Origin: Prauserella marina
Lineage (GTDB): Bacteria; Actinomycetota; Actinomycetes; Mycobacteriales; Pseudonocardiaceae
Length of the DNA: 64,000 bases
Direction of reading: 5' to 3'
Assembly: GCF_002240355.1 (NCBI RefSeq)
Contig: NZ_CP016353.1
Coordinates: 6,673,001-6,737,000, forward strand
Positions 3,904-60,925 of the stretch are shown here, in pieces (the first letter of the stretch is position 1; each line of letters begins with the position of its first letter). A program made the translations under genes and the position numbers. Below the pieces are notes generated by a model. That model was not told the DNA's origin. It made no database searches and saw only the letters and a list, made by a program, of their open reading frames with translations.

Positions 3904-5496
3904 ATGTTTGCCATGAGCACCCACCTGGTGGCCACGAACCCGCCGCCCGGCACAGCGACCGATGTCCTCGCCGCGGAGGGAGGGACCCTCTCCTCCATCG
4001 AGAACTGGGTCAACGAGGTCTTCACACCCATCTCCGACGGCCTCTCCAACTTCGTATTCGCCGAACTCACCATCGGCGGCATCTCGTTTCCGTGGATCGT
4101 CGCCTGGCTGGTCATCGCCGCGGCCGTCTTCACCATCTACTTCGGCTTCGTACAGTTCCGCAAGTTCAAGCTCGCCACCGAACTCGTGCGAGGCCAGTAC
4201 ACCAGTAAGGACGAGCCGGGGGAGATCAACCACTTCCAGGCACTCGCATCCGCGTTGTCGGGAACAGTCGGGCTCGGCAACATCGCGGGCGTCGGCGTCG
4301 CCGTCACCATCGGCGGACCAGGCGCGACCCTGTGGATGGTCGTGGCGGGCCTGCTCGCGATGTGCACCAAGTTCGTGGAGTGCACGCTCGGCGTGAGATA
4401 TCGCGAGACCCACGAGGACGGCACCGTCTCCGGTGGCCCAATGCACTATCTGCGCAAGGGGCTTGCCGAGCGATTCGGCAACAAGTTCGGGATCATTCTC
4501 GGCAGGGTGCTCGCCGTCCTCGCCGCCGTGATGCTGCTGTTCTTCGCGTTCGCAGGCGGCAACATGTTCCAGGCGAACCAGACGTTCGCGCAGGTCAAGG
4601 ACGTCACGGGTGGCGATGAGGGCTTCCTTGGCAGTGATGGAGCCGCGTTCATCTTCGGCGTTCTGCTCGCCATCGTCGTCGGCGCGGTGATCATCGGCGG
4701 CATCAAGTCGATCGGCGCCGTCACCAGCAGGCTCGTCCCCGCGATGGGCATCATCTACGTCACGGCCTGCCTGATCGTCATTCTCGTCAACTTCACCGAG
4801 GTGCCCGCCGCGTTCGGCCAGATCCTCGCCGGGGCGTTCACGGGCGAGGGCGTCGCCGGTGGCGCGATCGGCGCGCTGATCGTCGGCTTCCAGCGCGCCC
4901 TCTTCTCCAACGAGGCCGGCATCGGTTCCGCTCCGATCGCGCACTCGGCCGTGAAGACGAAGAACCCCGCGACCGAGGGCTACGTCGCCCTGCTCGAACC
5001 ATTCATCGACACGGTGATCGTGTGCACGATGACCGCGCTCACCGTCGTCATCGCCAACACCCCGTTCTGGAACGACGCCCGCGCCGACGTGGCGGCGGGC
5101 GGCGAGACGCCGGACGGCGTGACGGTGACCTCGAACGCGTTCGAAACCGTGCTGCCGTGGTTCCCCTACATCCTGACGATCGCGGTGGTGCTCTTCGCGC
5201 TTTCCACGCTCATCACGTGGGGCTACTACGGACAGAAGGCGTGGACGTTCCTGTTCGGCAAGAACCGGACGAGCGAGCGCGTCTACCAGGTGATCTTCTG
5301 CCTGTTCACCATCGCGGGCTGCGTGCTGACGCTCGGCAGCGTGCTCAATTTCGCCGACGCCGTACTGTTCCTGCTCGCGCTGTTCAACATCATCGGCCTC
5401 TACCTGCTCGTTCCCATCGTGAAGAGGGAGGTTGCCGACTTCGCGGCGAAGCTGAAGTCGGGAGAGGTCAAGAAGCAGGACAAGACCAAGGTCTGA
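3904..5496 (+). CDS. Sodium:alanine/glycine symporter (AGCS family)
   Basis: Integral membrane symporter, 530 residues from the chosen start, that would import alanine or glycine with Na+. The family signature is present: GTVGLGNIAGVGVAV, followed by TIGGPGATLWM, and the later FSNEAGIGSAPIAHSA motif, with about ten hydrophobic segments. The N-terminus before FPWIVAWLVIAAAVF is probably extracytoplasmic. The start is uncertain: ATG at 3904 or 3913, or a TTG at 3853, and none has a strong ribosome site. It is divergent from clpB and shares its intergenic region. The C-terminus is lysine-rich. Substrate identity is by family, not shown by the sequence. Confidence 0.9.
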   Translation: MFAMSTHLVATNPPPGTATDVLAAEGGTLSSIENWVNEVFTPISDGLSNFVFAELTIGGISFPWIVAWLVIAAAVFTIYFGFVQFRKFKLATELVRGQYTSKDEPGEINHFQALASALSGTVGLGNIAGVGVAVTIGGPGATLWMVVAGLLAMCTKFVECTLGVRYRETHEDGTVSGGPMHYLRKGLAERFGNKFGIILGRVLAVLAAVMLLFFAFAGGNMFQANQTFAQVKDVTGGDEGFLGSDGAAFIFGVLLAIVVGAVIIGGIKSIGAVTSRLVPAMGIIYVTACLIVILVNFTEVPAAFGQILAGAFTGEGVAGGAIGALIVGFQRALFSNEAGIGSAPIAHSAVKTKNPATEGYVALLEPFIDTVIVCTMTALTVVIANTPFWNDARADVAAGGETPDGVTVTSNAFETVLPWFPYILTIAVVLFALSTLITWGYYGQKAWTFLFGKNRTSERVYQVIFCLFTIAGCVLTLGSVLNFADAVLFLLALFNIIGLYLLVPIVKREVADFAAKLKSGEVKKQDKTKV

Positions 5497-5512
5497 GCCT
5501 TCCGGCCCCGAT

Positions 5513-5565
5513 CCCTGCCCGGTCCCCGCTCGGCCTACCGGCCGTCCGTGGAGGACCGGGCAGGG
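5513..5565. terminator. Hairpin between convergent symporter and MarR genes
   Basis: CCCTGCCCGGTCC at 5513-5525 and its exact complement at 5553-5565, with a 27-nt loop. It lies 17 bases past the symporter stop and includes the last codons of the marR-type gene, so it could serve both convergent genes. Confidence 0.5.
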
Positions 5566-6023
5566 CAGGGCGTTTCCTGGTCGACCACCGCACGCAAGTC
5601 CGCGTTCACCGCCCCCAGCCGTTCGGTCAGCTCCTTCAGCTCGGCCTCGTCCCATTCGCCGAACGCCTCGCTGAGAAACTCGGCGTGCAGCCGCTTCCAG
5701 CGGACGAGCCGCCGCTCACCCTCCTCTGACACCTTCACGAGCGATGCCCTGCCGTCCTCAGGAGCGGGCCTGCGCTCGATGAGCCCCGCCTCGGCGAGCT
5801 GACTCACCTGTCTGCTGATCACCGAGATGTCGACCATCCGATGTTTCGCCAGCTCGGAGAGGCGCGACTCACCTCGGCGCTCGATCTCCGACAGCAACAT
5901 CGCGGCCGCGGGGTGCGGTCCCTGCTCCTGCTGCCAGAGCTGCATGATCCACGCGTGCTGTAGCTGAGAGGCCAGCTTCAGCTGCCTCATCAAGTCAACG
6001 CATACCTCTTCGGAGGGGACCAC
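5535..6023 (-). CDS. MarR-family transcriptional regulator
   Basis: 162 residues. A winged helix-turn-helix of MarR type is seen at about 45-115: AAMLLSEIERRGESRLSELAKH, then the recognition region MVDISVISRQVSQLAEAGLIERRPAPEDGRA, where the wing carries the family's DxR motif. Flanking helices would make the dimer interface. Such proteins are usually local repressors relieved by small ligands. Start is either GTG 6023 (used here) or ATG 5990; neither is clearly favoured by a ribosome site. It converges on the symporter gene and is divergent from the flavohemoprotein region; repeats at 6053-6099 just upstream are candidate operators. Confidence 0.88.
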   Translation of the reverse strand: MVPSEEVCVDLMRQLKLASQLQHAWIMQLWQQEQGPHPAAAMLLSEIERRGESRLSELAKHRMVDISVISRQVSQLAEAGLIERRPAPEDGRASLVKVSEEGERRLVRWKRLHAEFLSEAFGEWDEAELKELTERLGAVNADLRAVVDQETPCPARSSTDGR

Positions 6024-6052
6024 TACCTACCACCCGGTCACTCAAAGTTACT

Positions 6053-6099
6053 TGCTCGATACAAATTCTACCTTAATGGTTGCGTGCTCAATACACGCA
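6053..6099. promoter_or_regulatory. Candidate operator repeats upstream of the MarR gene
   Basis: Two direct repeats TGCTCGATACA (6053-6063) and TGCTCAATACA (6085-6095) are spaced 32 bp, about three helical turns. The second is embedded in an inverted repeat TGCGTG-N7-CACGCA (6081-6099). The region is noticeably A+T-richer than its surroundings. Binding by the MarR protein is inferred from position only. Confidence 0.4.
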
Positions 6100-6240
6100 T
6101 TGGGTGAATTACGGCACGAAACCGGCGGAGGTGCCACCCAAGTGGAGCAACCAAAGGCGGACAACCTTCGTAATGGCTACCGAACAACCGCTCAGGAACC
6201 TACTGTTGTGTTGGCGCTTGCTCGGAAAGGTGGAATATTC

Positions 6241-6318
6241 ATGAAGCCGACGGAGTCGTTGTGGGGCACTGACCTGCTGGAGCGGGACTCGCCCTCAAGG
6301 TCACCCATTCGTGAATAA
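6241..6318 (+). CDS. Possible 25-residue small ORF upstream of the flavohemoprotein gene
   Basis: An ATG preceded by GGAAAGGTGG opens a 25-codon frame (MKPTESLWGT..., ending SPIRE) that stops 69 bases before the flavohemoprotein start. It is hydrophilic and matches no family that I know. The good ribosome site and its position suggest a leader peptide or small protein, but a frame of this length could be chance. Codon use is less G/C-biased than in neighbouring genes. Confidence 0.25.
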   Translation: MKPTESLWGTDLLERDSPSRSPIRE

Positions 6319-6387
6319 TCGCGAGCGGCAAAAGGTGACTCTGAGTATGCAAAAACGCGCGCAGATCGAGACCACTGGGGCAGATGG

Positions 6388-7563
6388 ATGACAGCCGACG
6401 CGATCAGCCCGCTACCCCGGGTTTCTCCGCCAAGGCAACCGCCTCCGGCCGTCACCGCGATGGTCGATCTGATCAGGGACACCTGGCGGCAAGCCGAGCC
6501 CTACACGCCGGAGATCTCCCAGTTCTTCTACGGGATGCTGTTCACGCTGGCGCCTGCCACCCGCGACTTTTTTCCCATCAACATGGAGGTGCAGCGAGGA
6601 CGGCTCGTCAGGGCACTCGTGCACATTCTCCAGCTCGTCGACCGGCCCGACGATCTCGCGCCGTATCTCCGCCAGCTCGGAAGGGACCACCGCAAGTTCG
6701 GCGTGATCCCCAACCACTACGAGGCCGTCGGCACCGCGCTGCTCGCGGCGCTCAAGCGGCACCTCGGTCCCGCGTGGACCCAGCCGGTCGAGCTGGCCTG
6801 GGCTGAGGCGTACACGATCATCGCCAGGTCGATGCAGGAAGCGGCGGCCTCGTCGGAGCACCCGGCTTGCTGGACGGCGACCGTCGCCGAGCACAGGCGG
6901 CTGAGCTGGGACCTCGCGCTGGTCAGGATCGAGCCCGAAGTCCACATCCCGTTCGAGGCAGGCCAGTACCTGAGCATCGAGGTACCGCAACGCCCCCGGC
7001 TGTGGCGCTACCTTTCGCCCGCCAATGGCCCACGTCCCGATGGGTCGCTCGAATTCCACGTGCGCGCGATCGAAGGCGGCTGGGTGTCTCGGGCCATCGT
7101 CAGCCACACCCAGAGCGGCGACGTGTGGCGCATCGGCCCGCCGATGGGCAGGCTCGCCGTCGACAGGGAAAACGGCAGGGACGTGCTGATGATCGCGGGC
7201 GGCACCGGGCTCGCGCCGCTCCGCTCGATACTCGACGAGCTGGGGCAATGGGGCGACAACCCGAGAGTGACGCTCTTCTACGGGGGCGCGACGCGGGACG
7301 ATCTCTACGATCTCGAACAGCTTCGGACGCTGGCCTCCACCAACCCGTGGCTCACCGTGCGGCCCGTCGTCGAGCGCGCGGAGGGACTGCCGGGGTTCGA
7401 CCACGGCACGCTGGCCGATGTCGTCACCAGGCATGGGGCGTGGCCAGGCCACGACGTCCTCGTCTCCGGCTCGCCGTCGATGATCAGGGCGACGGTCTCG
7501 CGGATGCTGGTCGCCGGAACGGCGCTCGACCAGATCCGCTACGACCCGTTCACCCTGGACTGA
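6388..7563 (+). CDS. Flavohemoprotein-like globin/FAD/NAD oxidoreductase
   Basis: 391 residues. The globin domain is at about 22-155, with the F-helix histidine in LGRDHRKFGVIPNHY. A ferredoxin-reductase-type FAD domain is at about 160-260 (FEAGQYLSIEV; RYLSPAN in place of the usual RxYS motif), and an NAD(P) domain at about 265-391 (IAGGTGLAPLRSIL and VLVSGSPSMIR). Family role: NO dioxygenation or related heme-flavin electron transfer from NAD(P)H in the cytoplasm. The loss of the Tyr in the FAD motif resembles actinobacterial divergent flavohemoglobins, so classical NO dioxygenase activity is not certain. ATG start; about 25 proline-rich residues precede the globin fold. Confidence 0.88.
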   Translation: MTADAISPLPRVSPPRQPPPAVTAMVDLIRDTWRQAEPYTPEISQFFYGMLFTLAPATRDFFPINMEVQRGRLVRALVHILQLVDRPDDLAPYLRQLGRDHRKFGVIPNHYEAVGTALLAALKRHLGPAWTQPVELAWAEAYTIIARSMQEAAASSEHPACWTATVAEHRRLSWDLALVRIEPEVHIPFEAGQYLSIEVPQRPRLWRYLSPANGPRPDGSLEFHVRAIEGGWVSRAIVSHTQSGDVWRIGPPMGRLAVDRENGRDVLMIAGGTGLAPLRSILDELGQWGDNPRVTLFYGGATRDDLYDLEQLRTLASTNPWLTVRPVVERAEGLPGFDHGTLADVVTRHGAWPGHDVLVSGSPSMIRATVSRMLVAGTALDQIRYDPFTLD

Positions 7564-48657: not shown

Positions 48658-49683
48658 TCAGGCTCGGGCCAGGGTTTGGCGCTTGGTTCGGCGGCCCAGG
48701 ACAAGGAACCAGGCCAGATAGGCTCCGCCGAGCGCCGAGGTGACCACGCCTACCGGCAACAGCGACGACTCCAGCAGTCGCTGACCGAGGTAGTCCGACG
48801 CCACGACGAGCGCGGCCCCCAACAGCGCAGCCGTGAGCAGGTTCGGTCCCGGCCTTCTCGTCAGCCGCTTGGCGATCTGCGGCGCCGCGAGCGCGACGAA
48901 CGGGATCGGCCCCGCCGTCGCGACCGCGACCGCCACCAACGCGACGGCCAGCACGAACAGCAGGCGCCGCATCCGGTCGACATCGACACCGATGCCGATG
49001 GCGACGTCGTCGCCCATTTCCAGCATCCGCAGCGGCTTCGCGTAAGCGAACACCACGGGGGCGAGCAGGGCGACGGCCACGACGATCGGCACCAGGTAAC
49101 GCCAGTCCCTTCCGGCGAGGTTGCCGACCTGCCAGGTCACCGCCTGCGCCGCCGATTCAGCCGTCGCCCTCGTGAGCAGGTAGGCGCTGATCCCGATCAG
49201 CACGGTGCCGATACCGACCCCGACGAGCACGAGCCGGTCACTGCGCAGTCCCCGCCGTCCGCACAGCGCTGTGACCAGCACCGCCGTCAGCAGCCCTCCG
49301 ACGATGGCGCCGAAAGCGACCGTGACCGTCCCAGCGCCGAACACGATGATCGTGGCGACGCCACCGGTCGCCGATCCAGCCGTGAAGCCGATGATGTCCG
49401 GGCTGCCGAGCGGGTTGCGGCTCAGCGTCTGGAAAACGGCGCCGGAAAGCGCCAGCGCGATGCCGACGACGATGGCGACCAGGACTCTCGGCAACCGCTG
49501 CTCGGTGACGACGAGGTAGTCGAACTTGCTTCCCTGCCCCGCGAGCGTCGCCAGTACGTCGCCGAACGACATCGGATACTCACCGGTGCCGATGGAGAGC
49601 ACAGCAAGCGCGGCCGTGACGAGAACGAGGGCCGCGACCACGACGACCGCCCTGCGCTCCATGCGCTTCCGCACCGCGCTCAT
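48658..49683 (-). CDS. Siderophore ABC transporter permease (FecCD/FepG type)
   Basis: 341 residues with about nine to ten membrane helices. Motifs: LVVTEQRLPRVLVAIVVGIALALSGAVFQTLSRNPLGSPDIIGFTAGSATGG and PIPFVALAAPQIAKRLTRRPG, the conserved loops of iron-siderophore permeases that couple to the ATPase. The ATG overlaps the upstream permease stop (ATGA), so both are one unit. No ATPase gene follows; a repeat locus does. Confidence 0.94.
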   Translation of the reverse strand: MSAVRKRMERRAVVVVAALVLVTAALAVLSIGTGEYPMSFGDVLATLAGQGSKFDYLVVTEQRLPRVLVAIVVGIALALSGAVFQTLSRNPLGSPDIIGFTAGSATGGVATIIVFGAGTVTVAFGAIVGGLLTAVLVTALCGRRGLRSDRLVLVGVGIGTVLIGISAYLLTRATAESAAQAVTWQVGNLAGRDWRYLVPIVVAVALLAPVVFAYAKPLRMLEMGDDVAIGIGVDVDRMRRLLFVLAVALVAVAVATAGPIPFVALAAPQIAKRLTRRPGPNLLTAALLGAALVVASDYLGQRLLESSLLPVGVVTSALGGAYLAWFLVLGRRTKRQTLARA

Positions 49684-50702
49684 GGCCGCACCGTCCGCAG
49701 TCGCCGGATCAGGAAGACGAAGACGAGCCCGCCGACGACGTCGGTGACGATGCCGACCTGCAACTCGGCCGGGCTCGCGAGCAGCCTGCCGAGCACGTCG
49801 CAGCCGAGCAGCACGACCGGAGCGGCGAGAACGGAGAGACCGAGCACCCAGCGTTCGTCCTGTCCTGCCACGAGTCGTACCAGGTGCGGAACCATCAGGC
49901 CGACGAACGCGATCGGTCCGCAGGCCGCCGTCGCCGCGCCGCACAGCAACCCGACCGCGAGGATGCTGATCACCCTGACGACAGCGGGGTTGGCGCCGAG
50001 CCCGTGCGCGGTGTCATCGCCGAGTGCGATGGCGTTGAGCGAGCGACCGAGCAGCAACGCGATGACCACTCCGGCGACGAAGAACGGGATGAGCCCGGTC
50101 AGCGTGCTGAGGTCCCTGTCGGCGAGGGAACCGACGAGCCAGAATCGCATCTTGTCGAGCGCGTGGGTGTCGATCACCTGCATGGCCTGGTTGATGCCGA
50201 CGAATGCGGCCTGCAACGCGACTCCGGCAAGCGCGAGCCGCATCGGGCTGTTGGCTCCCCTTCCCCCACCGATGGCGTAGACGAGGGCGGTCGCGACGAT
50301 CGAGCCGACGAAAGCGAACCACACCAGGTGCCCTGGCGCGGTCACTCCGAACACGGCGGAGGCGAAGACGATGGCGACGGCGGCTCCGTGGTTGATGCCG
50401 AGGATCCCGGGGTCCGCGATGGGGTTCCTCGTCACCGACTGCATGAGCGCGCCCGCGAGACCAAGCGCCATGCCGACGACGATGCCGAGTACGGTCCTCG
50501 GCAGCCTCGTGTCGCGTACGACGGTGTCGCTGTAGCTTCCGTCGTAGGCGAAGAGCGCGTGCAGCACTTCGGTCAGCGAGAGCCGGTTCGAGCCGAGCGC
50601 GATGGAGAGCAGCACGACGACCGCCAACGCGACGACGATGCCGAGTAACGCCAGCGCTCGCGTCGACCGGCGGGTTTCTCGCACCGAGACGGTCACCACC
50701 AT
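49680..50702 (-). CDS. Siderophore ABC transporter permease (FecCD/FepD type)
   Basis: 340 residues. VVRDTRLPRTVLGIVVGMALGLAGALMQSVTRNPIADPGILGINHGAAVAIV and CGPIAFVGLMVPHLVRLVAGQD are the FecCD signatures; about ten membrane helices. ATG 50702 is taken as start; a TTG two codons upstream is unlikely. It is divergent from a siderophore-binding protein gene, and an iron box lies between them, so both are probably repressed by an iron-loaded regulator. Confidence 0.94.
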   Translation of the reverse strand: MVVTVSVRETRRSTRALALLGIVVALAVVVLLSIALGSNRLSLTEVLHALFAYDGSYSDTVVRDTRLPRTVLGIVVGMALGLAGALMQSVTRNPIADPGILGINHGAAVAIVFASAVFGVTAPGHLVWFAFVGSIVATALVYAIGGGRGANSPMRLALAGVALQAAFVGINQAMQVIDTHALDKMRFWLVGSLADRDLSTLTGLIPFFVAGVVIALLLGRSLNAIALGDDTAHGLGANPAVVRVISILAVGLLCGAATAACGPIAFVGLMVPHLVRLVAGQDERWVLGLSVLAAPVVLLGCDVLGRLLASPAELQVGIVTDVVGGLVFVFLIRRLRTVRP

Positions 50703-50713
50703 GGCCAACAGAC

Positions 50714-50732
50714 TAAGGCCAGGCTAACCTCA
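50714..50732. promoter_or_regulatory. IdeR/DmdR-type iron box
   Basis: TAAGGCCAGGCTAACCTCA matches the consensus TTAGGTTAGGCTAACCTAA at 15 of 19 positions. It sits between the divergent permease (50702) and binding-protein (50743) genes, so one site could control both. Confidence 0.8.
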
Positions 50733-50742
50733 TCGCGTGACC

Positions 50743-51732
50743 ATGTTCAGTGATGTGAATCGTAGGCGCTTTCTCGGCGGCGCTCTTGCGCTGGGTGCCA
50801 CGACTGTGCTGGCCGCGTGCGGTTACCAAGAAGACACCACGCAGCAAGGTTCCGAATCGACCTGGTCCTTCAAGGACGACAGGGGTCGCACGCTCGACGG
50901 CAACCGCCCCGAGCGCATCGTCGCCCAGGTGACGGCTGCGGCGGCGCTGTGGGAATTCGGCATCCGCCCCGTGGGCATCTTCGGTCCTTCGAAACTGCCG
51001 ACGGGCAAACCGGATCCGCAGGTCGGCAACGTCGACCTCGCCTCGGTCCAGTCGCTCGGCAACGTGTGGGGCGAGTTCAACTACGACCGCTACGTCGAGC
51101 TCAAGCCGCAGTTGCTGGTCAGCGTGATGTATCTCAAGGACGAGTTGTGGTACGTCCCAGCCGAGCAGGCCGGCGCCGTCGAGCGGGCCGCCCCGACCGT
51201 CGGTCTCGACCTCGGCGGTATCTCGATCACCGACGGCATCGAGAAGTTCCGCGCCCTCGCGAAGGCACTCGGCGGCGACGTCGACTCCGATTCGGTCAAG
51301 AAGGCGAAAGCCGAGTTCGACTCGTTCACCGAGGACTTCCCGCAGACGGTGAACGCGGTCGGTGACAAGAAGTTGCTGCTGGTGTCCGCGACGCAGGAAG
51401 GCGTGTGGGCAGGCAACGCGCAGGGCTTCCCCAGCAGCAAGTACCTCGCTGACAACGGGTTGAGCTTCGTGGAGCCGAACGCACCGGGTGACGGCAACTA
51501 CTGGGAGCAACTGAGCTGGGAGAACGCAGGGACCTATCCGGCCGACGTGATCCTGCTCGACAGCAGGTACGGAAACCTCCAGGCCGACCAGCTCGGGGGC
51601 TATCCGACCTGGCAGAAGCTGCCCGCCGTGCAGGAGGGCAACGTGATTCCGTGGAATCCGGAGACGCCCTTCTCGTACTCGGCGGCCGTCGGGGAACTCG
51701 GCTCGATCGGTACTGCCCTACGCGCTATCTGA
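50743..51732 (+). CDS. Siderophore/iron ABC transporter binding lipoprotein
   Basis: 329 residues from ATG 50743 (a GTG at 50737 is also possible). The start has both a twin-arginine-like motif (NRRRFLGG) and a lipobox LAAC, so the protein is probably exported and lipid-anchored. TroA/FepB-type fold: FKDDRGRTLDGNRPERIVAQ, LWEFGIRPVGIFGP and GDKKLLLVSATQEGVWAG. It delivers an iron chelate to the FecCD permeases encoded divergently. Only 22 bases before bioY, with a weak 7-bp hairpin between, so read-through is possible. Confidence 0.92.
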   Translation: MFSDVNRRRFLGGALALGATTVLAACGYQEDTTQQGSESTWSFKDDRGRTLDGNRPERIVAQVTAAAALWEFGIRPVGIFGPSKLPTGKPDPQVGNVDLASVQSLGNVWGEFNYDRYVELKPQLLVSVMYLKDELWYVPAEQAGAVERAAPTVGLDLGGISITDGIEKFRALAKALGGDVDSDSVKKAKAEFDSFTEDFPQTVNAVGDKKLLLVSATQEGVWAGNAQGFPSSKYLADNGLSFVEPNAPGDGNYWEQLSWENAGTYPADVILLDSRYGNLQADQLGGYPTWQKLPAVQEGNVIPWNPETPFSYSAAVGELGSIGTALRAI

Positions 51733-51741: not shown

Positions 51742-51754
51742 TAGGTTGCCATAC

Positions 51755-52330
51755 GTGCCAGGACCACGCCCTACTCTTCCCGCGTCCGACCTCGCGAGGA
51801 CGGTCGTATTCGCCGCGTTCATCGCCGTGCTCGGCTTGTTTCCAGGGTTCTACGTCGGCGGATCCGGCGTGCCGATCATCATCCAGAACATGGGTCCGCT
51901 GCTCGCGGGCATCATTCTCGGGGCGAGGAGGGCTACGGCGGCCGTCGTGCTGATGCTCGCGTTGACCGCCATCGGGCTCCCGCTCCTTTCCGGAGGACGT
52001 GGCGGGGTCGCGCCGTTCATCGGGCCAAGCGGCGGTTTCCTCTTCGGCTGGATCGCCTCCGCGCTGGTCGCGGGCCTGATCGCGCAGCGGGCTCGCAACA
52101 GGGGACTGCCCGTGTTGCTGCTGGCGGCCTTCGCGGGCCTGCTCGCCGACTACCTCGTCGGCATCCCCTTCCTCGGCTTCTACACCGGCGACTTCGGTGC
52201 GGCCTTCGTGCAGTCACTCGTCTTCGTGCCTGGCGATCTCGCCAAGGTCGTCGTCGCCGCGCTCGTTGCCTCCGTCGTACACAGAGCGCTTCCCGGCACT
52301 CTCGTCAGCTCAGCGGCCAGGAACGAATGA
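51755..52330 (+). CDS. bioY: BioY, biotin-specific S component of an ECF importer
   Basis: 191 residues with six hydrophobic segments. BioY marks: VFAAFIAVLGLFPGFYVGGSGVPIIIQNMGPLLAGIILG and GGRGGVAPFIGPSGGFLFGWIASALVAGL, where GGV-type loops contact biotin, and GLLADYLVGIPFLGFYTG. It binds biotin and pairs with BioM (ATPase) and BioN (T component), encoded three genes on. GTG at 51755 with TTAGG upstream is preferred to a TTG at 51746. Its stop overlaps the ligase start (ATGA). Confidence 0.93.
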   Translation: MPGPRPTLPASDLARTVVFAAFIAVLGLFPGFYVGGSGVPIIIQNMGPLLAGIILGARRATAAVVLMLALTAIGLPLLSGGRGGVAPFIGPSGGFLFGWIASALVAGLIAQRARNRGLPVLLLAAFAGLLADYLVGIPFLGFYTGDFGAAFVQSLVFVPGDLAKVVVAALVASVVHRALPGTLVSSAARNE

Positions 52331-53589
52331 CCTTCGCGACACCGCCGGTCACCGGTTCGGTTCCCGGCGAGCTGCTTGCCTCGGCCAACGCCGCGGCTGT
52401 CAGCCTCGGCGAGCTGGGCGTTGGCGAGGGCGACCGGATCGCCATCGACTCGCCGACCGTGCTTCCGTGGCTGCTCGGGGCCGATCTACTCGGCGCAGCC
52501 TCCGTCGTGATCGACCCTTCGTGGCCTGCCGAGCACCGGCAGGGCGTGCTCGACGACGCCCGTCCGCGCACCGTGGTCGGGGCGGACCTCGACCCTCGCG
52601 AGTTTTTCGCCGAGCGAGCGGCCGGTACCGGGTCGACCGTGTTCTACCTGCCGACGACTTCGGGCAGCAGCGGGAGGCCGAAGGTGCTCGCCCGCACCCG
52701 CGACTCCTGGCTGCGCAGCTTCGCCGCGCTCGGCCCGATCGGCGGCCCTGTGCTCATCCCGGGCCCGCTCAGCTCGTCGCTGTTTCTCTTCGGCGCGCTG
52801 CACACGCTGTGGTCCGGTGGCAGCCCGCTGCTGAGGCCGAGGTGGAGTCCCGCCGAGGCCCGCGAGGCCCAAGCCGTGCACCTGGTTCCCGCGATGCTGG
52901 CCGGGCTGCTGACCGAGCTGGACCGAACCGGGGGGCCGTGCGCGCTGCGCACCGTCGTCTGTGGAGGCGCCGAACTCGGCCAGCGACTGCGGGAACGGTT
53001 TCACCGGCTGCTCCCCGAGGCGGAGCTGATCGAGTACTACGGCTCGGCCGAGCACTCGTTGATCGCCATTCGCAGGGGCGCAACGCTGATGCGGGTTCCG
53101 GATGTCGATCTCGACGTCCGGGACGGCGTGTTGTGGGTGAGGTCACCGTTGGCGTTCTCCGGCTACCTCCGACAAGGCGTGCTCGACCCGGCAGGGGAGT
53201 GGTCGACGGTCGGTGACCTCGCCGAGGTCGCGGCTTCCGGCGAGGTGACCGTGCACGGAAGGGGCAGTTCCACCATCACGAGCGGGGGCAACCTCGTCCC
53301 AGCCGAGGAGGTCGAGCGGGTTCTTCGCGCGGTAGCGGGGGTGACCGACGTCGTCGTCTCCGGTACGCCGCATCCGAGGCTGGGAGCCGTCGTCACGGCG
53401 GTCGTCGAGGGAGCGCCTTCGCTTCGCGAGCTGCGACAGGCGGCCCGCGCGGCGCTGCCTCCCGCGAAGCGCCCGCGCCGCTGGCTGGTCACGACGACGC
53501 TGCCGAGGACGGCGTCGGGAAAGCCGGCGCGCTCGGCGATCGCCGAGCGACTGCGAGACGAGACGTTGACGGCGGAGCCGCTGGTATGA
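52327..53589 (+). CDS. AMP-forming acyl-CoA ligase in the biotin operon (YhfT-like)
   Basis: 420 residues, shorter than a usual acyl-CoA ligase (500-600), with a compact N-terminal part. P-loop-like motif LPTTSGSSGRPKVLARTRDS, then ELIEYYGSAEHSLIAIR (A5-type), STVGDLAEVAASGEVTVHGRGSSTITSGGNLV (A7/A8 with the GD and hinge) and LPRTASGKPARSAI (A10 lysine). Such enzymes activate a carboxylic acid with ATP. Operons joining bioY, a ligase and a thiolase are known in Bacillus (yhfU-yhfT-yhfS), where the product is unclear; a biotin or pimelate-like acid is a reasonable guess. Overlaps both neighbours by four bases. Confidence 0.88.
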   Translation: MTFATPPVTGSVPGELLASANAAAVSLGELGVGEGDRIAIDSPTVLPWLLGADLLGAASVVIDPSWPAEHRQGVLDDARPRTVVGADLDPREFFAERAAGTGSTVFYLPTTSGSSGRPKVLARTRDSWLRSFAALGPIGGPVLIPGPLSSSLFLFGALHTLWSGGSPLLRPRWSPAEAREAQAVHLVPAMLAGLLTELDRTGGPCALRTVVCGGAELGQRLRERFHRLLPEAELIEYYGSAEHSLIAIRRGATLMRVPDVDLDVRDGVLWVRSPLAFSGYLRQGVLDPAGEWSTVGDLAEVAASGEVTVHGRGSSTITSGGNLVPAEEVERVLRAVAGVTDVVVSGTPHPRLGAVVTAVVEGAPSLRELRQAARAALPPAKRPRRWLVTTTLPRTASGKPARSAIAERLRDETLTAEPLV

Positions 53590-54701
53590 CGGCCGGGGAT
53601 GCTCCTGTCGTCGTCGCGGCGCTGCGTTCACCCATCGGTTCGGCAGGCGGGGCGCTGCGCGGGTATCCGGTGGCCGAACTCGCCGCGCCAGTGCTGCGCG
53701 CCGTACTCGACGCGACTGGTGTGGACGAACTAGCTGACGTCGTGCTCGGCAACGTCTTCGGCCCTGGCGGCAATCCGGCGAGGGTCGCCGCGTTGCGGGC
53801 GGGGCTCGGGGTTCCCGGCATGACGGTGGACCGGCAGTGCGCGAGCGGGCTCGCGGCAATCGCCACGGCAGCAGCGATGATCAGGGCAGGCGAGGGCGAG
53901 GCGTACCTCGCCGGCGGGGTGGAAAGCGCGTCGACGGCGCCGTACCGGGCCTGGCGCACCGAACCGCCGACCTGGTACGACAGGGCGCCGTTCGCACCGG
54001 CCGACATCGGTGATCCGGACATGGGCCCCGCGGCCGACCTGGTCGCGGCCGAAGCGGGGATTTCCCGCGAACGACAGGATCTCTTCGCGACGCGCAGCCA
54101 TGAGCGAGCCGTCGCGGCCCAGCGCGCGGGCACCTTCGATGCGGAGATCGTCCCTTTCGGAGAGGTCACGCACGACGAACGGCCCCGCGCCGGGTTCACC
54201 TTCGAACGGCTCGCCCGCTTCCGGCCCGCTTTCAGCGAGGAAGGAACCGCGACAGCGGCCAATTCGTGCGGTATCAACGACGGAGCGGCCGTCGTGCTCA
54301 TCGTGAGTGAGTCGATGCGTGAACGGCTCGGGCTTCGCGGGCTGCGATTGCTTTCCTCGGCGACCTCGGCCGTCGACCCCAACCGGCTCGGGCTCGGCGC
54401 GGTGGGCGCGATGCGCCAGGTCAGTGCGGCATTGCCTGCCGCACCGGACGTCGTGGAGTTCAACGAGGCGTTCGCGGGGCAGACACTCGCCTGCCTCGAC
54501 GCGGCGGGTATCGACGAGCACACGGTGAGTCCCGACGGCGGTGCGATCGCGCTGGGACATCCGTGGGGTGCCTCAGGTGCGGTTCTTGTCGTCAGGTTGT
54601 TCACTCGGCTGGTGAGAATGGGCGGTGCCCGCACCGGGCTCGCCGCGCTGTCGGCGGGAGGCGGCGTCGGCGTCGCGACGGCGTGGGAGGTGACATCGTG
54701 A
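53586..54701 (+). CDS. Thiolase-fold protein in the biotin operon (YhfS-like), second Cys replaced
   Basis: 371 residues, thiolase fold. The nucleophilic Cys85 is present (DRQCASGL), as are Asn293 in FNEAFAGQ and His325 in GHPWGASG. The second catalytic cysteine of the C-x-GGG-x-G loop is replaced by Ser356 (ALSAGGGVG). Thiolases condense or cleave 3-ketoacyl-CoA; the missing base may change the reaction. It lies between an acyl-CoA ligase and bioM, with overlapping starts (ATGA, GTGA), so one polycistronic unit. Likely works on the CoA product of the ligase. Related to YhfS of Bacillus by context. Confidence 0.88.
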   Translation: MTAGDAPVVVAALRSPIGSAGGALRGYPVAELAAPVLRAVLDATGVDELADVVLGNVFGPGGNPARVAALRAGLGVPGMTVDRQCASGLAAIATAAAMIRAGEGEAYLAGGVESASTAPYRAWRTEPPTWYDRAPFAPADIGDPDMGPAADLVAAEAGISRERQDLFATRSHERAVAAQRAGTFDAEIVPFGEVTHDERPRAGFTFERLARFRPAFSEEGTATAANSCGINDGAAVVLIVSESMRERLGLRGLRLLSSATSAVDPNRLGLGAVGAMRQVSAALPAAPDVVEFNEAFAGQTLACLDAAGIDEHTVSPDGGAIALGHPWGASGAVLVVRLFTRLVRMGGARTGLAALSAGGGVGVATAWEVTS

Positions 54702-55372
54702 TCGAGTTCGACGGCATCGGCCATCACTACGGCAAGCGCACCGTACTGTCCGATGTGGACCTTTCGCTGCCCGAGCGACGCGTGGCCTTCGTCGGCGCCA
54801 ACGGATCGGGAAAATCGACACTGGCCCGCATGATCAACGGCCTCGTGCTCCCCGAAAAGGGATCCGTGCGGGTCGAAGGGCTCGATCCGGCGAAGAACGG
54901 GCGTGAGGTGCGCCGCAAGGTCGGCTTCATCTTCACCAACCCGGACAGCCAGATCGTGATGCCGACGGCAGGTGAGGACGTCGCCTTCTCACTGCGAAAA
55001 AGCGAACTGTCCAAAAAGGAGCGAGCGGCGAAGGCGGAGCGCGTGCTCGCCGACTACGGCCTCTCCGGATACGCCGAACATCCGGCCCACCAGCTTTCCG
55101 GAGGCCAGAAGCAGCTGCTCGCGCTGTGCTCGATGCTGGTGCTCGACCCCGACGTACTGGTGTGCGACGAGCCGACGACGCTGCTCGACCTCCGCAACAA
55201 ACGCAGGTTCGCCGAGACGCTGCGGGAACTGCGGCAGCAGGTCGTGCTGGTCACCCACGACCTCGAACTGCTGGACGACTTCGAAAGGGTCGTCGTACTC
55301 GACGAGGGCAGGGTGGTCGCCGACGACGAACCACGGCCCGCGTTGACGTACTACCGGAAGCTCGTGGAATGA
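54698..55372 (+). CDS. bioM: BioM, ATPase of the biotin ECF importer
   Basis: 224 residues. Walker A GANGSGKST, Q-loop FTNPDSQIVMPTAGEDVAFSL (NPDxQ is the ECF ATPase type), signature LSGGQKQLLAL, Walker B VLVCDEPTTLLDL and His switch VTHDLELLDD. GTG start with GGGAGGTGACATC upstream; the longer frame overlaps the thiolase gene and is rejected. Drives biotin uptake with BioN and BioY. Confidence 0.94.
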   Translation: MIEFDGIGHHYGKRTVLSDVDLSLPERRVAFVGANGSGKSTLARMINGLVLPEKGSVRVEGLDPAKNGREVRRKVGFIFTNPDSQIVMPTAGEDVAFSLRKSELSKKERAAKAERVLADYGLSGYAEHPAHQLSGGQKQLLALCSMLVLDPDVLVCDEPTTLLDLRNKRRFAETLRELRQQVVLVTHDLELLDDFERVVVLDEGRVVADDEPRPALTYYRKLVE

Positions 55373-55980
55373 CGCCCTTCGGACTCACCGAGCCGGGTTC
55401 GAGCTTGCTGCACAGAACACCGGCGGGCTGGAAGCTGCTGGCACTGCTCGTGCTCGCGGCCGTCGTGTTCGTGGTGCGGTCGCCAGTGTGGCTCGGCGGA
55501 ATCACGGTGGTCGTCCTGCTCGGGTACGCGCTCGCGCGAATTCCCGCACGCCGTTGCCTGCACACGGCACGCACCCTCGCCGTGCTCGTGGTGTTCGTCT
55601 TCGCGCTGCAATCGTGGCTGCTGGGCATCGAAGCCGCGGCCGTGATCTGCCTTCGCATCGTCGCCGCACTCGCCGCGGCCAACCTGTTCACGCTGACGAC
55701 GAAGGTCGACGACGTGGTGTCCGCCGTCGAACGCGGACTGCGGCCGTTGCGCCGGTTCGGGATCAAACCGGACCGGATCGGCCTGCTCGTCGGACTGACG
55801 TTGCAGGCGGTCGCCGCGATCTCCGGCATCGCCGGTGAGGTACGCGAGGCCGCGAAAGCGCGGGGAGCGCAGCGGTCGCCGACCGCGTTCGCCGTGCCGT
55901 TTCTGGTACGCACGCTGCGGCACGCCGACGAGCTGGGCGAAGCGCTCGCCGCCCGCGGCATCGGCGACCGCGGGCGGTGA
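55369..55980 (+). CDS. bioN: BioN, transmembrane T component of the biotin ECF importer
   Basis: 203 residues with four to five helices, the CbiQ/EcfT type: GSSLLHRTPAGWKLLALLVLAAVVF near the start, and the coupling helices VVSAVERGLRPLRRFGIKPDRIGLLVGLTLQAV and VREAAKARGAQRS, where the ARG motif docks the ATPase. ATG overlaps bioM by four bases. Last gene of the biotin operon; converges on the M20 peptidase gene. Confidence 0.92.
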   Translation: MTPFGLTEPGSSLLHRTPAGWKLLALLVLAAVVFVVRSPVWLGGITVVVLLGYALARIPARRCLHTARTLAVLVVFVFALQSWLLGIEAAAVICLRIVAALAAANLFTLTTKVDDVVSAVERGLRPLRRFGIKPDRIGLLVGLTLQAVAAISGIAGEVREAAKARGAQRSPTAFAVPFLVRTLRHADELGEALAARGIGDRGR

Positions 55981-57531: not shown

Positions 57532-58326
57532 GTGACTCCCATGCTGTCCGTGAGCAACCTCGAAGTCGTCTACGACGACGTCGTGCCCGCGCTCCGCGGA
57601 CTGAGCATCACGGTGCCTTCCGGCGCGATCGTGGCGTTGCTCGGCGCCAACGGCGCTGGCAAGACCACCCTGCTGCGCGCGGTCACCGGCCTGCTCGTCC
57701 CGCATCGCGGCAAGATCACCAAGGGCGCCGTACGGCTCGCCGGAACCGACGTCACGGGCGCCGACGCCGCCTTCATCGTCCGCAACGGCATCGCCCAGGT
57801 GATGGAAGGCAGGCGGATCTTCGCCGAGATCACGGTTGAGGAAAACCTCAAGGCGGGCGCGTACAGCAGACGAAACCGCGGCGAAATCCGCGAGTCCTAC
57901 GTGCGGGTGCTCGATCTCTTCCCCGTGCTCGCGACGAGGCGCAAGGCCATCGCGGGTTACCTCTCCGGCGGCGAGCAGCAAATGCTCGCCATCGGAAGAG
58001 CACTCATGGCCGCGCCGAAGCTGTTACTGCTCGACGAGCCTTCACTCGGTCTCGCGCCCCGCCTCGTCGAACAGGTCCGCGACATCATCACGCACATCAA
58101 CCGGCAGGGAACCAGCGTGCTGCTGGTCGAACAGAACGCCGTCATGGCGCTGTCGGTCGCAGGGTCGGGATACGTGCTCGAAACCGGAAAGGTCGTCAAG
58201 GAAGGCGAATCGGCCGCATTGCTCGCCGACGAGGACATCAGGGAGTTCTACCTGGGGGCAAGCGCCGAACACCGGTCGTTCGCCGAGGTCAAGAGCTACC
58301 GGAGGAAGAAGCGATGGAGCGCCTGA
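57532..58326 (+). CDS. Branched-chain-type ABC importer, ATPase (LivF type)
   Basis: 264 residues. Walker A GANGAGKTT, the LivF trait GIAQVMEGRRIFAEITVEENL, signature LSGGEQQMLAI, Walker B LLLLDEPSLGLAP and the EQN-type switch VLLVEQNA. The C-terminus (SYRRKKRWSA) is an extension. GTG start with GGAGGATCG before it. First gene of a six-gene operon that includes an acyl-CoA ligase. Confidence 0.94.
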   Translation: MTPMLSVSNLEVVYDDVVPALRGLSITVPSGAIVALLGANGAGKTTLLRAVTGLLVPHRGKITKGAVRLAGTDVTGADAAFIVRNGIAQVMEGRRIFAEITVEENLKAGAYSRRNRGEIRESYVRVLDLFPVLATRRKAIAGYLSGGEQQMLAIGRALMAAPKLLLLDEPSLGLAPRLVEQVRDIITHINRQGTSVLLVEQNAVMALSVAGSGYVLETGKVVKEGESAALLADEDIREFYLGASAEHRSFAEVKSYRRKKRWSA

Positions 58327-59090
58327 CGCCGCTGCTCGAAGCATCCGGGCTGACCCTCCGCTTCGGCGGGGTGACAGCGTTGGACGACGTCGGTTTCGAG
58401 GTCGGCGGCGGCGAACTGTTCGCGATCATCGGGCCGAACGGTGCAGGCAAGACGTCGATCTTCAACTGCCTCAACGGGGTGTACCGCCCGCAGCGGGGCA
58501 CGATCACCCTCGAAGGGACCTCGCTCGTCGGGCGCGCCCCTGCCGCGATCGCCGCGATGGGTGTCGCGAGGACGTTCCAGAACCCCGGACTGTTCAGCAG
58601 GCTCACCGTGGTCGAAAACCTGATGCTCGGAAGGCACCACCTCATGCGCACCGGGTTCTTCTCCGGCATGGCGTGGTGGGGAAGGGCCAAGCGGGAGGAG
58701 ATCCGGCACAGGGCAGCCGTCGAGGACATCGTCGATCTGCTCGAACTTGAGCCGTACCGGTGGTCGCCCGCCGGACTGCTGCCCTACGGCGTCGCGAAGC
58801 GGGCCGAACTGGGCCGCGCGCTCGCGATGGAGCCCAAGTTGCTGCTGCTCGACGAACCGGTCGCCGGGATGAATCTCGAAGAGACCGAGGACACCGCGCG
58901 CTACCTGCTCGAAGTCCGAGCGGAACTCGGTATCGCCATGATCCTGGTCGAGCACGACATGAGCCTGGTGATGGACGTCGCCGACCGGGTGCTCGCGCTC
59001 GACTTCGGGAAGGCGATCGCGACAGGGAAACCCAGCGAGGTCCAGCACGATCCCCTCGTCGTCGAGGCATACCTCGGCGGTGCGGCGTGA
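58314..59090 (+). CDS. Branched-chain-type ABC importer, ATPase (LivG type)
   Basis: 258 residues. Walker A GPNGAGKTS, the LivG trait GVARTFQNPGLFSRLTVVENLMLGRH, Walker B LLLLDEPVAGMN (NxEE following) and ILVEHDMSLVMDVADRVLALDFG. The signature segment LLPYGVAKRAELGRAL is a weaker LSGG-type, as usual in LivG. Overlaps livF-type by 13 bases. Confidence 0.94.
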   Translation: MERLTPLLEASGLTLRFGGVTALDDVGFEVGGGELFAIIGPNGAGKTSIFNCLNGVYRPQRGTITLEGTSLVGRAPAAIAAMGVARTFQNPGLFSRLTVVENLMLGRHHLMRTGFFSGMAWWGRAKREEIRHRAAVEDIVDLLELEPYRWSPAGLLPYGVAKRAELGRALAMEPKLLLLDEPVAGMNLEETEDTARYLLEVRAELGIAMILVEHDMSLVMDVADRVLALDFGKAIATGKPSEVQHDPLVVEAYLGGAA

Positions 59091-60925
59091 AGACCGCGGC
59101 CGGTGGGCTCGGCACGAAGCCGGTCCGGCACGCCGACGACGCCGAGCCGACATTGCCCGCGCGGTTGCTCGCCAACGCACACCACCGTCCCTCCGCCGTC
59201 GCGCTTCGCGAGAAGCACCGCGGCTACTGGCGGGAATGGACCTGGTCGGAATACGCGCGCAGGGTCGCCAACACGGCGGCAGCCCTGCGGCGACTGGGCG
59301 TCGCGCGAGGTGAACGCGTCGCCATCCACGCGGAGAACCGGCCGGAGTGGGTGATCGCCGACCTCGCGGCGCAGAGCATCGGGGCCACCAGCGTCGGGAT
59401 CTACCCGACGTCGCCGTCGGCCGAGGTGGAGTACCTGCTCGCGCATTGCGGCGCGACCGTGCTCATCGCAGAGGACGAGGAGCAACTGGACAAGGTCCGC
59501 GCGGTACGCGGCAAGCTTCCCGCGCTACGGCACATCATCGTCATCGACACTCGCGGGATCGGAGACGAGGATCTGCTGACCTTCGCCGCGCTGGAGGAAA
59601 TCGGCGCGAACACCGACGATCCGCTCGCCGCGCTCGCCGAGTCGGTCGCCGCGCTCGACCCCTCATCGCCCGCGATCATCGTCTACACGTCGGGAACGAC
59701 GGGCCCGCCGAAGGGCGCCCTGCTCTCGCACGCGAACCTCACTGCCTCGGCGAGCACGTTCCTCACCGCGCTCGGCGGCACTTCGGCCGACGAAGTACTC
59801 AGCTACCTCCCGCTCTGCCACATCGCGGAACGGCTCACCTCGGTGATCGACTCGGTGTGGGCGGGCTCCGTCGTGAACTTCGGCGAGGGTGGGCCTGCCT
59901 TCCCCCGAGACCTCCGCGACATTCAGCCAACCGTCTTCCTCGGCGTGCCGAGGGTGTGGGAGAAGCTGCTCGCCGGTGTCGAGTTGCGCATGGCTGACGC
60001 GTCGCCGTTCAAGAAGCTCGTGTACCGGTCGTGCCTGCGGCAGGGCAGGCGGATCGCGCCATCGAGGATGCGCGGTACCACCGGTCTCACCGACCGGTTG
60101 ATCCTCGCGTTGTGCGAGCTGCTGATCTTCCGCACGTTGCGGGAAAAGCTCGGCATGGTGCGAGTGCGGGTCGCGTTGAGCGGGGCGGCCCCGATCGCGC
60201 CCGAAGTGCTCGAATTCCTGTGGGCCATCGGCATCCACGTCAGGGAGGGGTACGGACAGACGGAGAACACGGCGATCTGCACGCTCACTCCGGCAGACGA
60301 CATCCGGCTCGGCATGGTCGGCACCGCGCTTCCCGGCGTCGAACTGTCCATTGCGGACGACGGAGAGATCATCACAAGGTCGGCCGGTGTCTTCCTCGGC
60401 TACCTCGACGATCCCGAAGCGAGCGCGCAGGCCGTCGACGAGCAGGGCTGGTTGCACACCGGCGACATAGGGGTCGTCGACGCCGACGGGTTCCTTCGCA
60501 TCACCGATCGCAAGAAGGACATCATCATCACGGCAGGCGGCAAGAACGTCTCGCCTTCGGAGATCGAGAACCGGCTCAAGGTCTCGCCCTATGTGCGCGA
60601 AGCCGTCGTGATCGGCGACCGGCGCAAATACCTGACCGCGTTGATCGGTATCGAGTCCGACGTCGTCGGTGAATGGGCGAGCAGGAAGGGCATCGGGTAC
60701 ACCACCTATGCCGACCTTTCCGGAAAGCCCGAGGTGACGACTCTGATCCAGACCGTTGTCGACAGCACGAACGCCGTACTCGCCGACGTCGAACGGATCA
60801 AGCGCTTCACCCTGATCACGCGGGAACTCGATCACGAGTACGGCGAACTGACCGCGACGCACAAGGTCAAGCGGGCCGCCGTGGCGAAACTGTTCGGCGG
60901 CGAGATCGAGGCGATGTACCGATGA
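59087..60925 (+). CDS. Long-chain-type acyl-CoA ligase in the Liv operon
   Basis: 612 residues, FadD15-type. AMP-binding motif IIVYTSGTTGPPKGALLSH; EGYGQTENTAICTLTPADDIRLGMVG; GWLHTGDIGVVDADGFLRITDRKKDIIITAGGKNVSPSEIEN, and a C-terminal HKVKRAAVAKLF lysine. It makes acyl-CoA from a carboxylic acid, ATP and CoA. Placement between ABC ATPases and permeases suggests that the imported acid is activated on entry. GTG start overlaps livG-type stop (GTGA); the 109-codon upstream frame is rejected. Confidence 0.94.
   Translation: MKTAAGGLGTKPVRHADDAEPTLPARLLANAHHRPSAVALREKHRGYWREWTWSEYARRVANTAAALRRLGVARGERVAIHAENRPEWVIADLAAQSIGATSVGIYPTSPSAEVEYLLAHCGATVLIAEDEEQLDKVRAVRGKLPALRHIIVIDTRGIGDEDLLTFAALEEIGANTDDPLAALAESVAALDPSSPAIIVYTSGTTGPPKGALLSHANLTASASTFLTALGGTSADEVLSYLPLCHIAERLTSVIDSVWAGSVVNFGEGGPAFPRDLRDIQPTVFLGVPRVWEKLLAGVELRMADASPFKKLVYRSCLRQGRRIAPSRMRGTTGLTDRLILALCELLIFRTLREKLGMVRVRVALSGAAPIAPEVLEFLWAIGIHVREGYGQTENTAICTLTPADDIRLGMVGTALPGVELSIADDGEIITRSAGVFLGYLDDPEASAQAVDEQGWLHTGDIGVVDADGFLRITDRKKDIIITAGGKNVSPSEIENRLKVSPYVREAVVIGDRRKYLTALIGIESDVVGEWASRKGIGYTTYADLSGKPEVTTLIQTVVDSTNAVLADVERIKRFTLITRELDHEYGELTATHKVKRAAVAKLFGGEIEAMYR

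Follow-up and report, generated by a model that had tools for sequence, protein, structure and literature searches.

Why should a biotin importer be encoded together with two enzymes of acyl metabolism? The question is raised by an operon of Prauserella marina (assembly GCF_002240355.1), which we found in a window of 64,000 nucleotides (the whole stretch analyzed; contig NZ_CP016353.1, positions 6,673,001 to 6,737,000). Five plus-strand genes at 51755-55980 encode BioY, an AMP-forming ligase, a thiolase homolog, BioM, and BioN. Our analysis establishes the enzyme pair as a genuine partner dedicated to BioY and suggests that the extra enzymes beside the biotin importer are an undescribed route from damaged biotin back to the usable vitamin. 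The genes, as read from the reading frames of the window, are as follows.

51755 to 52330, plus strand: bioY, substrate-binding S component of an energy-coupling factor (ECF) transporter; GTG start; Pfam BioY at 107.2 bits; matches structure 4dve
52327 to 53589, plus strand: short ANL-type acid ligase of 420 amino acids; ATG start; AMP-binding at 90 bits and AMP-binding_C at 44 bits
53586 to 54701, plus strand: thiolase-fold enzyme of 371 amino acids; ATG start; Thiolase_N at 204 bits and Thiolase_C at 83 bits
54698 to 55372, plus strand: bioM, ECF ATPase (A component); GTG start; ABC_tran at 97 bits
55369 to 55980, plus strand: bioN, ECF transmembrane T component; ATG start; CbiQ at 46.4 bits

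All four junctions are 4-base start/stop overlaps (ATGA, ATGA, GTGA, and ATGA, in order), and the five-gene unit with four-base overlaps that the initial annotation had described is borne out by reading frames, sequence, and protein families. The S, A, and T components are all encoded in the operon according to Pfam, as in the BioMNY/BioYMN ECF biotin transporters of Corynebacterium and rhizobia; unlike in those, two enzyme genes lie between the S and A components. BioY matches Lactococcus lactis BioY (4dve, E value of 1.9e-24) and is the only BioY detected in the 6.99-Mb genome. The top NCBIfam match of BioM is ECF_ATPase_1, with 197.9 bits under a family cutoff of 315.

We investigated how far this arrangement is conserved. 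Among 41 related genomes, that of the window counted, BioY is present in 30 and the ligase in 9 (E value of 1e-30), and the order bioY-ligase-thiolase-bioM-bioN is seen in all 8 other ligase-bearing genomes. A scan with the ligase alignment, using one genome per species, gave 77 loci picked by likeness to bioY-linked ligases, so that close relatives dominate and some rows are near-identical; at least 5 of the 9 ligase-bearing related genomes reappear among them. The exact five-gene order is found in 72 of the 77, a count that takes in one locus with disrupted bioY and thiolase genes (L090). In the remaining loci, the sequence begins within the ligase at a contig end (L044 and L050) or stops within the thiolase (L092), the order is bioM-bioN-bioY-ligase-thiolase (L095, Glutamicibacter), or the ligase is an unrelated one (L096). 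With L090 excluded, in-frame 4-base overlaps are present at the four junctions in 50/73, 66/75, 62/73, and 64/74 loci, and with order and overlaps recurring in this way the unit can rightly be called tightly coupled, as first proposed. L090 (5321-5638), from Fodinicola, has bioY split over two frames and the thiolase start disrupted, through either decay or a sequencing error.

All five genes are also kept in a more distant genome of the phylum (L158), where a birA gene with an N-terminal helix-turn-helix domain, as judged by eye, is divergent from the unit (5005-6675). At L157, likewise from a more distant genome, ligase-thiolase-bioM-bioN runs up to a contig end and bioY stands at the end of another contig. 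A plasmid search matched 357 records, of which 7 of the 25 listed were opened; these show bioM-bioN-bioY-ligase-thiolase in Azospirillum and, with an opposite-strand thioesterase and a zinc-type dehydrogenase gene, in Sinorhizobium and Shinella. The extra genes of the rhizobial loci encode a hot-dog thioesterase and a zinc-type/quinone-reductase-like protein, on a strand that is not always shared. In Sinorhizobium meliloti Ak57, the ligase lacks an annotation, and the match covers the C-terminal two thirds only. Searches of viral contigs with the thiolase alignment gave no relative.

Quick trees, whose clades hold only against the controls used, group 19 thiolases (16 from bioY loci) into a single clade apart from the 14 further thiolases that the window's genome encodes, with a Shimodaira-Hasegawa-like approximate likelihood ratio test value of 100. 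Likewise, 21 ligases (18 from bioY loci) fall into a single clade when set against 27 other Actinomycetota ligases, with support of 100. Each of the two clades spans two phyla. A chance neighborhood of five genes is ruled out by the recurring order and the shared ligase and thiolase clades. The co-occurrence with bioY on which the initial annotation staked its proposal is thus wide, comprising the 72 loci and other genera besides.

The ligase looks active, since the adenylation motifs are retained in nearly all of the 79 rows aligned. It has both Pfam domains, and the positions that we take to be the ANL P-loop, YGxxE, GD, hinge Arg, and catalytic Lys are conserved in 74 to 79 of the 79 rows, the Lys (Lys399) in 78. 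Its predicted structure has a predicted local distance difference test score (pLDDT) of 86.7 and is nearest to 3r44 (a mycobacterial fatty acyl-coenzyme A [CoA] synthetase), MenE, 4-chlorobenzoyl-CoA ligase, and MatB, folds which, from a model, do not name a substrate.

The second enzyme departs from ordinary thiolases at one catalytic position. Its predicted structure is a thiolase fold (pLDDT of 80.2, weak at residues 119-144 and 215-228) with a template modeling score of 0.88 against solved thiolases. It shares this fold, the nucleophilic Cys, the GHP His, and usually the NEAF motif with biosynthetic and degradative thiolases such as Zoogloea thiolase, BktB, and PcaF. Compared with its 14 paralogs in the same genome, the window's enzyme keeps Cys85, His325 (GHP), and Asn293, but the Cys of the CXG motif is replaced by Ser356. 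We aligned 86 thiolase rows (without L092 and L096 and with L160, Rhizobium etli, and Rhizobium leguminosarum, whose genes are not beside bioY). The CXG position is Ser in 75, Gly in 6, Ala in 5, and Cys in none, while it is Cys in 14/14 paralogs. The nucleophile (Cys85, Cys89 in Zoogloea) is present in 85 rows, the exception being L090, where the frame is disrupted at that end, and the GHP His is present in all 86. In thiolases, the CXG Cys (Cys378) is described as the proton-taking base (PMC3406046). Because this base is missing, plain thiolytic shortening is doubtful; the enzyme may form an acyl-enzyme and carry out, without ordinary reversible thiolysis, either acyl transfer or a ketoacyl-synthase-like malonyl condensation. 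Cys228 as a relocated base was rejected, as it is also found in 3/14 ordinary paralogs and is missing in 2/86 members. The mycobacterial TLP1 and TLP2 are likewise described as thiolase folds with altered catalytic motifs, TLP1 also lacking the nucleophile, whereas the operon enzyme retains nucleophile and His (PMC3406046). The name thiolase fits the fold, nucleophile, and His but not the base, and the protein should not be called a functional thiolase before assay.

A comparable gene set, without an assigned pathway, had been recognized in Bacillus from the start, and the likeness stands. Bacillus subtilis yhfU-yhfT-yhfS and Staphylococcus aureus yhfS-yhfT also comprise a biotin-tied ligase and thiolase homolog, with a BioY-type protein in Bacillus, and the genes of our unit are linked in the same way; unlike in yhfUTS, our pair is embedded in an operon for a complete BioYMN transporter. 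Among curated families, the closest specific ones are PRK06690 (thiolases) and PRK07638 (most of the ligases scanned), which we take to be the models covering YhfS and YhfT; all matches are below the cutoffs. Within its genome, the window's thiolase outscores every other PRK06690 match by 80 bits, yet stays below the cutoff, while its ligase, also below the cutoff, is not the best PRK07638 match. Each model passes its cutoff in 1 of 14 control genomes. PRK07638 was rejected as a ligase marker, being unspecific (208/346 genomes match at 1e-42); of 30 PRK07638 loci, the first, third, and fifth listed adjoin bioY or thiolase-bioM.

BirA binds upstream of B. subtilis yhfUTS and S. aureus yhfS-yhfT, for which the cited accounts give only putative functions (PMC4016012, PMC6391492, PMC7235819). 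Since biotin-bound BirA represses these genes (PMC4016012, PMC6391492), they are expressed under biotin shortage, which is when a salvage route would be called for. According to a review, YhfT makes acyl-adenylates and no CoA thioesters, the group being passed to acyl carrier protein (ACP) (PMC10988940), which would fit a route linked to fatty acid synthesis. YhfU, the BioY-type protein of the Bacillus set, was later reported to be a pantothenate carrier (S component), PanU (PMC11487621). In RNA-seq data of a nolR-plus S. meliloti strain, the genes for BioY, SMc00965 (AMP-binding), and SMc00966 (thiolase family) are reported to fall together, by about 4.6- to 9.7-fold (log2 changes of -3.28, -2.61, and -2.20) (PMC12445080), and this shared change suggests that the three act as one unit. 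In open-access literature, we found no paper assigning a pathway or function to the bioY-ligase-thiolase set or to yhfT-yhfS.

We searched unit-bearing genomes for biotin synthesis genes, with E value thresholds of 1e-40 for bioB (50 of 76 usable loci covered), 1e-10 for bioD (77 of 91 genomes), and 1e-60 for bioF (24 genomes, every match under the model's cutoff). bioB was detected in 41 of 50 and not in the other 9. None of bioB, bioD, and bioF was detected in five genomes, G028, G078, G086, G087, and G088 (bioA was not searched); G028 is 100% complete in 4 contigs, and G087 and G088 are metagenome-assembled genomes. bioB and bioD were undetected in G043, bioB and bioF in G047, and bioB only in G001, G085, and G089, for which draft gaps may account. 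G028, G043, and G078 each have a single BioY, and in G086 BioY is split over two frames. Barring some other carrier, the BioY of the unit, being the sole one, should be the biotin port in the former three. Of 16 unit-bearing genomes tested, 15 have panC; with a single BioY and biotin genes undetected, biotin rather than pantothenate is the expected import need. Biotin auxotrophy is on record for S. meliloti 1021 as well as for R. etli CFN42 (PMC8914248), and the former strain carries the unit (PMC12445080). A pimelate route would have no use in the five genomes, and as the unit is kept there and in auxotrophic S. meliloti, it cannot serve pimelate synthesis solely; an exclusive pimelate role was rejected, and the pimelate-like substrate entertained in the initial annotation is disfavored.

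What, then, might the unit do? We tentatively favor, at somewhat less than even confidence, a salvage unit for biotin vitamers in general. The low-biotin expression of the relatives, the linkage to an importer, the presence in auxotrophs, and the activation of an acid point to an imported, not-yet-biotin acid that raises the biotin supply, as do the condensing-type fold without a thiolysis base and the rhizobial thioesterase and reductase-like protein. Bisnorbiotin, a shortened biotin, occurs in soil. It is also a recognized catabolite in humans (PMC11203980). Shortened biotins are the natural compounds we can name in which a C-C bond would have to be made. For substrate, direction, carrier, and each catalytic step, we infer the following. 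BioYMN would import biotin and vitamers with an altered side chain, and the ligase would form an acyl-adenylate and then a thioester to CoA or ACP. The thiolase-fold enzyme would load the acyl group on Cys85 and work as a condensing enzyme, a decarboxylating (malonyl-type) or pure acyl-transfer step suiting an enzyme without the CXG base better than reversible thiolysis. Two carbons would be added to a shortened side chain of the bisnorbiotin type, the keto product would be reduced by general fatty acid enzymes, and a thioesterase, such as the one beside the pair in rhizobia, would release biotin. Side-chain extension in particular is held with less confidence than vitamer salvage in general, and we regard as doubtful the specific version in which norbiotins from beta-oxidation of the vitamin are imported, activated, and rebuilt by the base-less decarboxylating enzyme, which would also explain yhfT-yhfS. 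Of the original idea that an imported acid is activated and its chain changed, the activation step and a biotin-linked thioester chemistry after it are retained, while pimelate is not supported and plain thiolysis is doubtful.

Several observations weigh against vitamer salvage. BioY without a ligase match occurs in 21 related genomes; 20 neighborhoods were taken, and in the 17 readable by tblastn no ligase or thiolase match lies within 8 to 14 kb around bioY. The locus L156 (4818-8219) has bioY-ligase-bioM-bioN without the thiolase, in a more distant genome of the phylum that is 64% complete, with a ligase that is the top-scoring PRK07638 match among those listed from 346 genomes scanned. In another such distant genome (L160), some 35 kb separate bioY from the ligase and thiolase genes, and the thioesterase-ligase-thiolase set of R. 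etli and R. leguminosarum is not adjacent to bioY. The NEAF Asn, present in 60 of the 86 rows, the window's included, is Thr in 26. The genome of the window has bioB, bioD, and a bioF-like gene, and judging by these the organism, like most carriers, probably makes its own biotin. In the actinobacterial operons we saw neither a keto-reductase nor a dehydratase, motif scans of the unit loci detected neither BioR nor BioQ sites, and we found no assay of these enzymes on any biotin compound. YhfU is reported to carry pantothenate (PMC11487621).

Other explanations have to be weighed. The unit might trap or store biotin, the ligase making a biotinyl thioester, the thiolase-fold enzyme moving it to a carrier, and a thioesterase freeing it. 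An enzyme that has lost the CXG base could still transfer acyl groups, a single operon joins import to activation, and a thioesterase adjoins the pair in rhizobia; however, the relatives under BirA control are expressed when biotin is low, whereas a storage program would call for the reverse (PMC6391492, PMC4016012), and two enzymes seem too many for the task, so that we consider trapping unlikely.

Alternatively, BioY may carry another acid for the enzymes to process, which could be pantothenate, as for YhfU/PanU, or else an aromatic or a fatty acid. A B. subtilis panC strain reportedly needs YhfU in order to use pantothenate (PMC11487621), YhfT has been tied to fatty acid activation for surfactin (PMC10988940), and the fold of our ligase is closest to fatty-acyl, MenE, aryl-acid, and MatB ligases. 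This reading has to contend with panC in 15 of the 16 unit-bearing genomes tested, with the genomes G028, G043, and G078, in which bioB and bioD are undetected and the only BioY is that of the unit, and with the birA gene adjoining the unit in L158; we judge it to be quite unlikely. Predicting the substrate of BioY from a few binding positions was dropped, as the numbering used was out of register and ligase-free BioYs differ too.

It seems improbable that the enzymes disarm or break down biotin antimetabolites or excess biotin imported by BioY, through activation and alteration of the side chain. Most of the named carriers are actinomycetes and rhizobia, whose habitats are places where biotin antimetabolites are made, and the ligase and the thiolase fold resemble the two ends of a beta-oxidation path. 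The missing CXG base disfavors thiolysis, though, the relatives are made at low biotin, and genomes with bioB, bioD, and bioF undetected, where waste of biotin is costly, carry the unit.

Supply of a pimeloyl thioester from an imported short diacid, by analogy to BioZ with glutaryl-CoA and malonyl-ACP, is very improbable, for even though a ligase and a condensing enzyme would suffice with fatty acid synthesis, most carriers have bioB, and the relatives are under BirA control, the unit persists in genomes with none of bioB, bioD, and bioF detected and in an auxotroph, S. meliloti (PMC8914248). The BioZ route of Agrobacterium, Brucella, and Sinorhizobium fredii also uses a thiolase-superfamily condensing enzyme for biotin supply, one that feeds fatty acid synthesis (PMC11089781), but BioZ resembles FabH, and bioF, bioA, bioD, and bioB are needed to process what it makes, of which bioF, bioD, and bioB are undetected in several carriers.

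The five-gene observation is thus confirmed and is more general than could be known from the window. yhfT-yhfS is a known part of the biotin regulon in two well-studied Gram-positive bacteria. What appear to be the same two enzyme families are tied to biotin importers in members of two phyla, share a catalytic change, and occur in auxotrophs, which gives a loose co-regulation the form of a specific pathway question. If salvage holds true, many supposedly simple biotin importers also use biotin breakdown products, and the exchange of vitamins among soil and root organisms would have to be seen differently.

Transcription probably begins at bioY, because a TANNNT box recurs before its start: 42 of 69 loci have one between -15 and -11, whereas control positions average 0.8 such loci (maximum of 6). 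In the window, the box ends 7 bases upstream of the GTG start, and the bioY transcript would probably be leaderless, even though a FhuD-like gene ends only 22 bases upstream.

51742 to 51747, plus strand: TANNNT box (TAGGTT), likely -10 element of a leaderless bioY transcript; position shared across loci

A scan of the unit loci for one BirA half-site led nowhere. An exact inverted repeat, GTTGTGG-N5-CCACAAC, lies upstream of bioY in six Actinopolyspora loci and one Halosaccharopolyspora locus (at 5147 in L063, 5226 in L065, 5109 in L072, 5084 in L081, 5122 in L083, 4986 in L084, and 5014 in L094) and is a candidate operator.

Clustering of the neighbors at 75 actinobacterial loci, in which the gene caller missed or antisensed some operon genes, gave a helicase-like gene at 28 loci, a phosphoribosyltransferase-like gene at 25, and a nicotinamidase-like gene at 23 (named by eye), followed by an ACT-domain/phosphatase-like gene at 15 and amino acid ATP-binding cassette (ABC) transporter genes at 11. 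No thioesterase, CoA reductase, or ACP reductase was seen by eye among these recurrent neighbors; no family scan was made. The three most frequent genes stand upstream of bioY (L020-L094), the latter two being perhaps NAD salvage genes in shared synteny. At L099 (3784-6366; about 1746784-1749366 of C1 in its own genome), a cytochrome P450 gene, by eye, ends about 30 bases before bioA and near bioB, and it is a possible BioI-like source of pimelate.

In the window, two FecCD-like siderophore-type permease frames (minus strand, by eye) and then a plus-strand FhuD-like binding protein gene (Peripla_BP_2) occupy 48658-51732, the latter ending 22 bases upstream of bioY; by eye, bioY of Prauserella muralis (L041) likewise follows the end of a similar protein. 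Downstream, at 57532-60925, two LivF/LivG-like ABC ATPases are followed by a long-chain acyl-CoA synthetase, by eye a second nearby arrangement of transporter and acid ligase.

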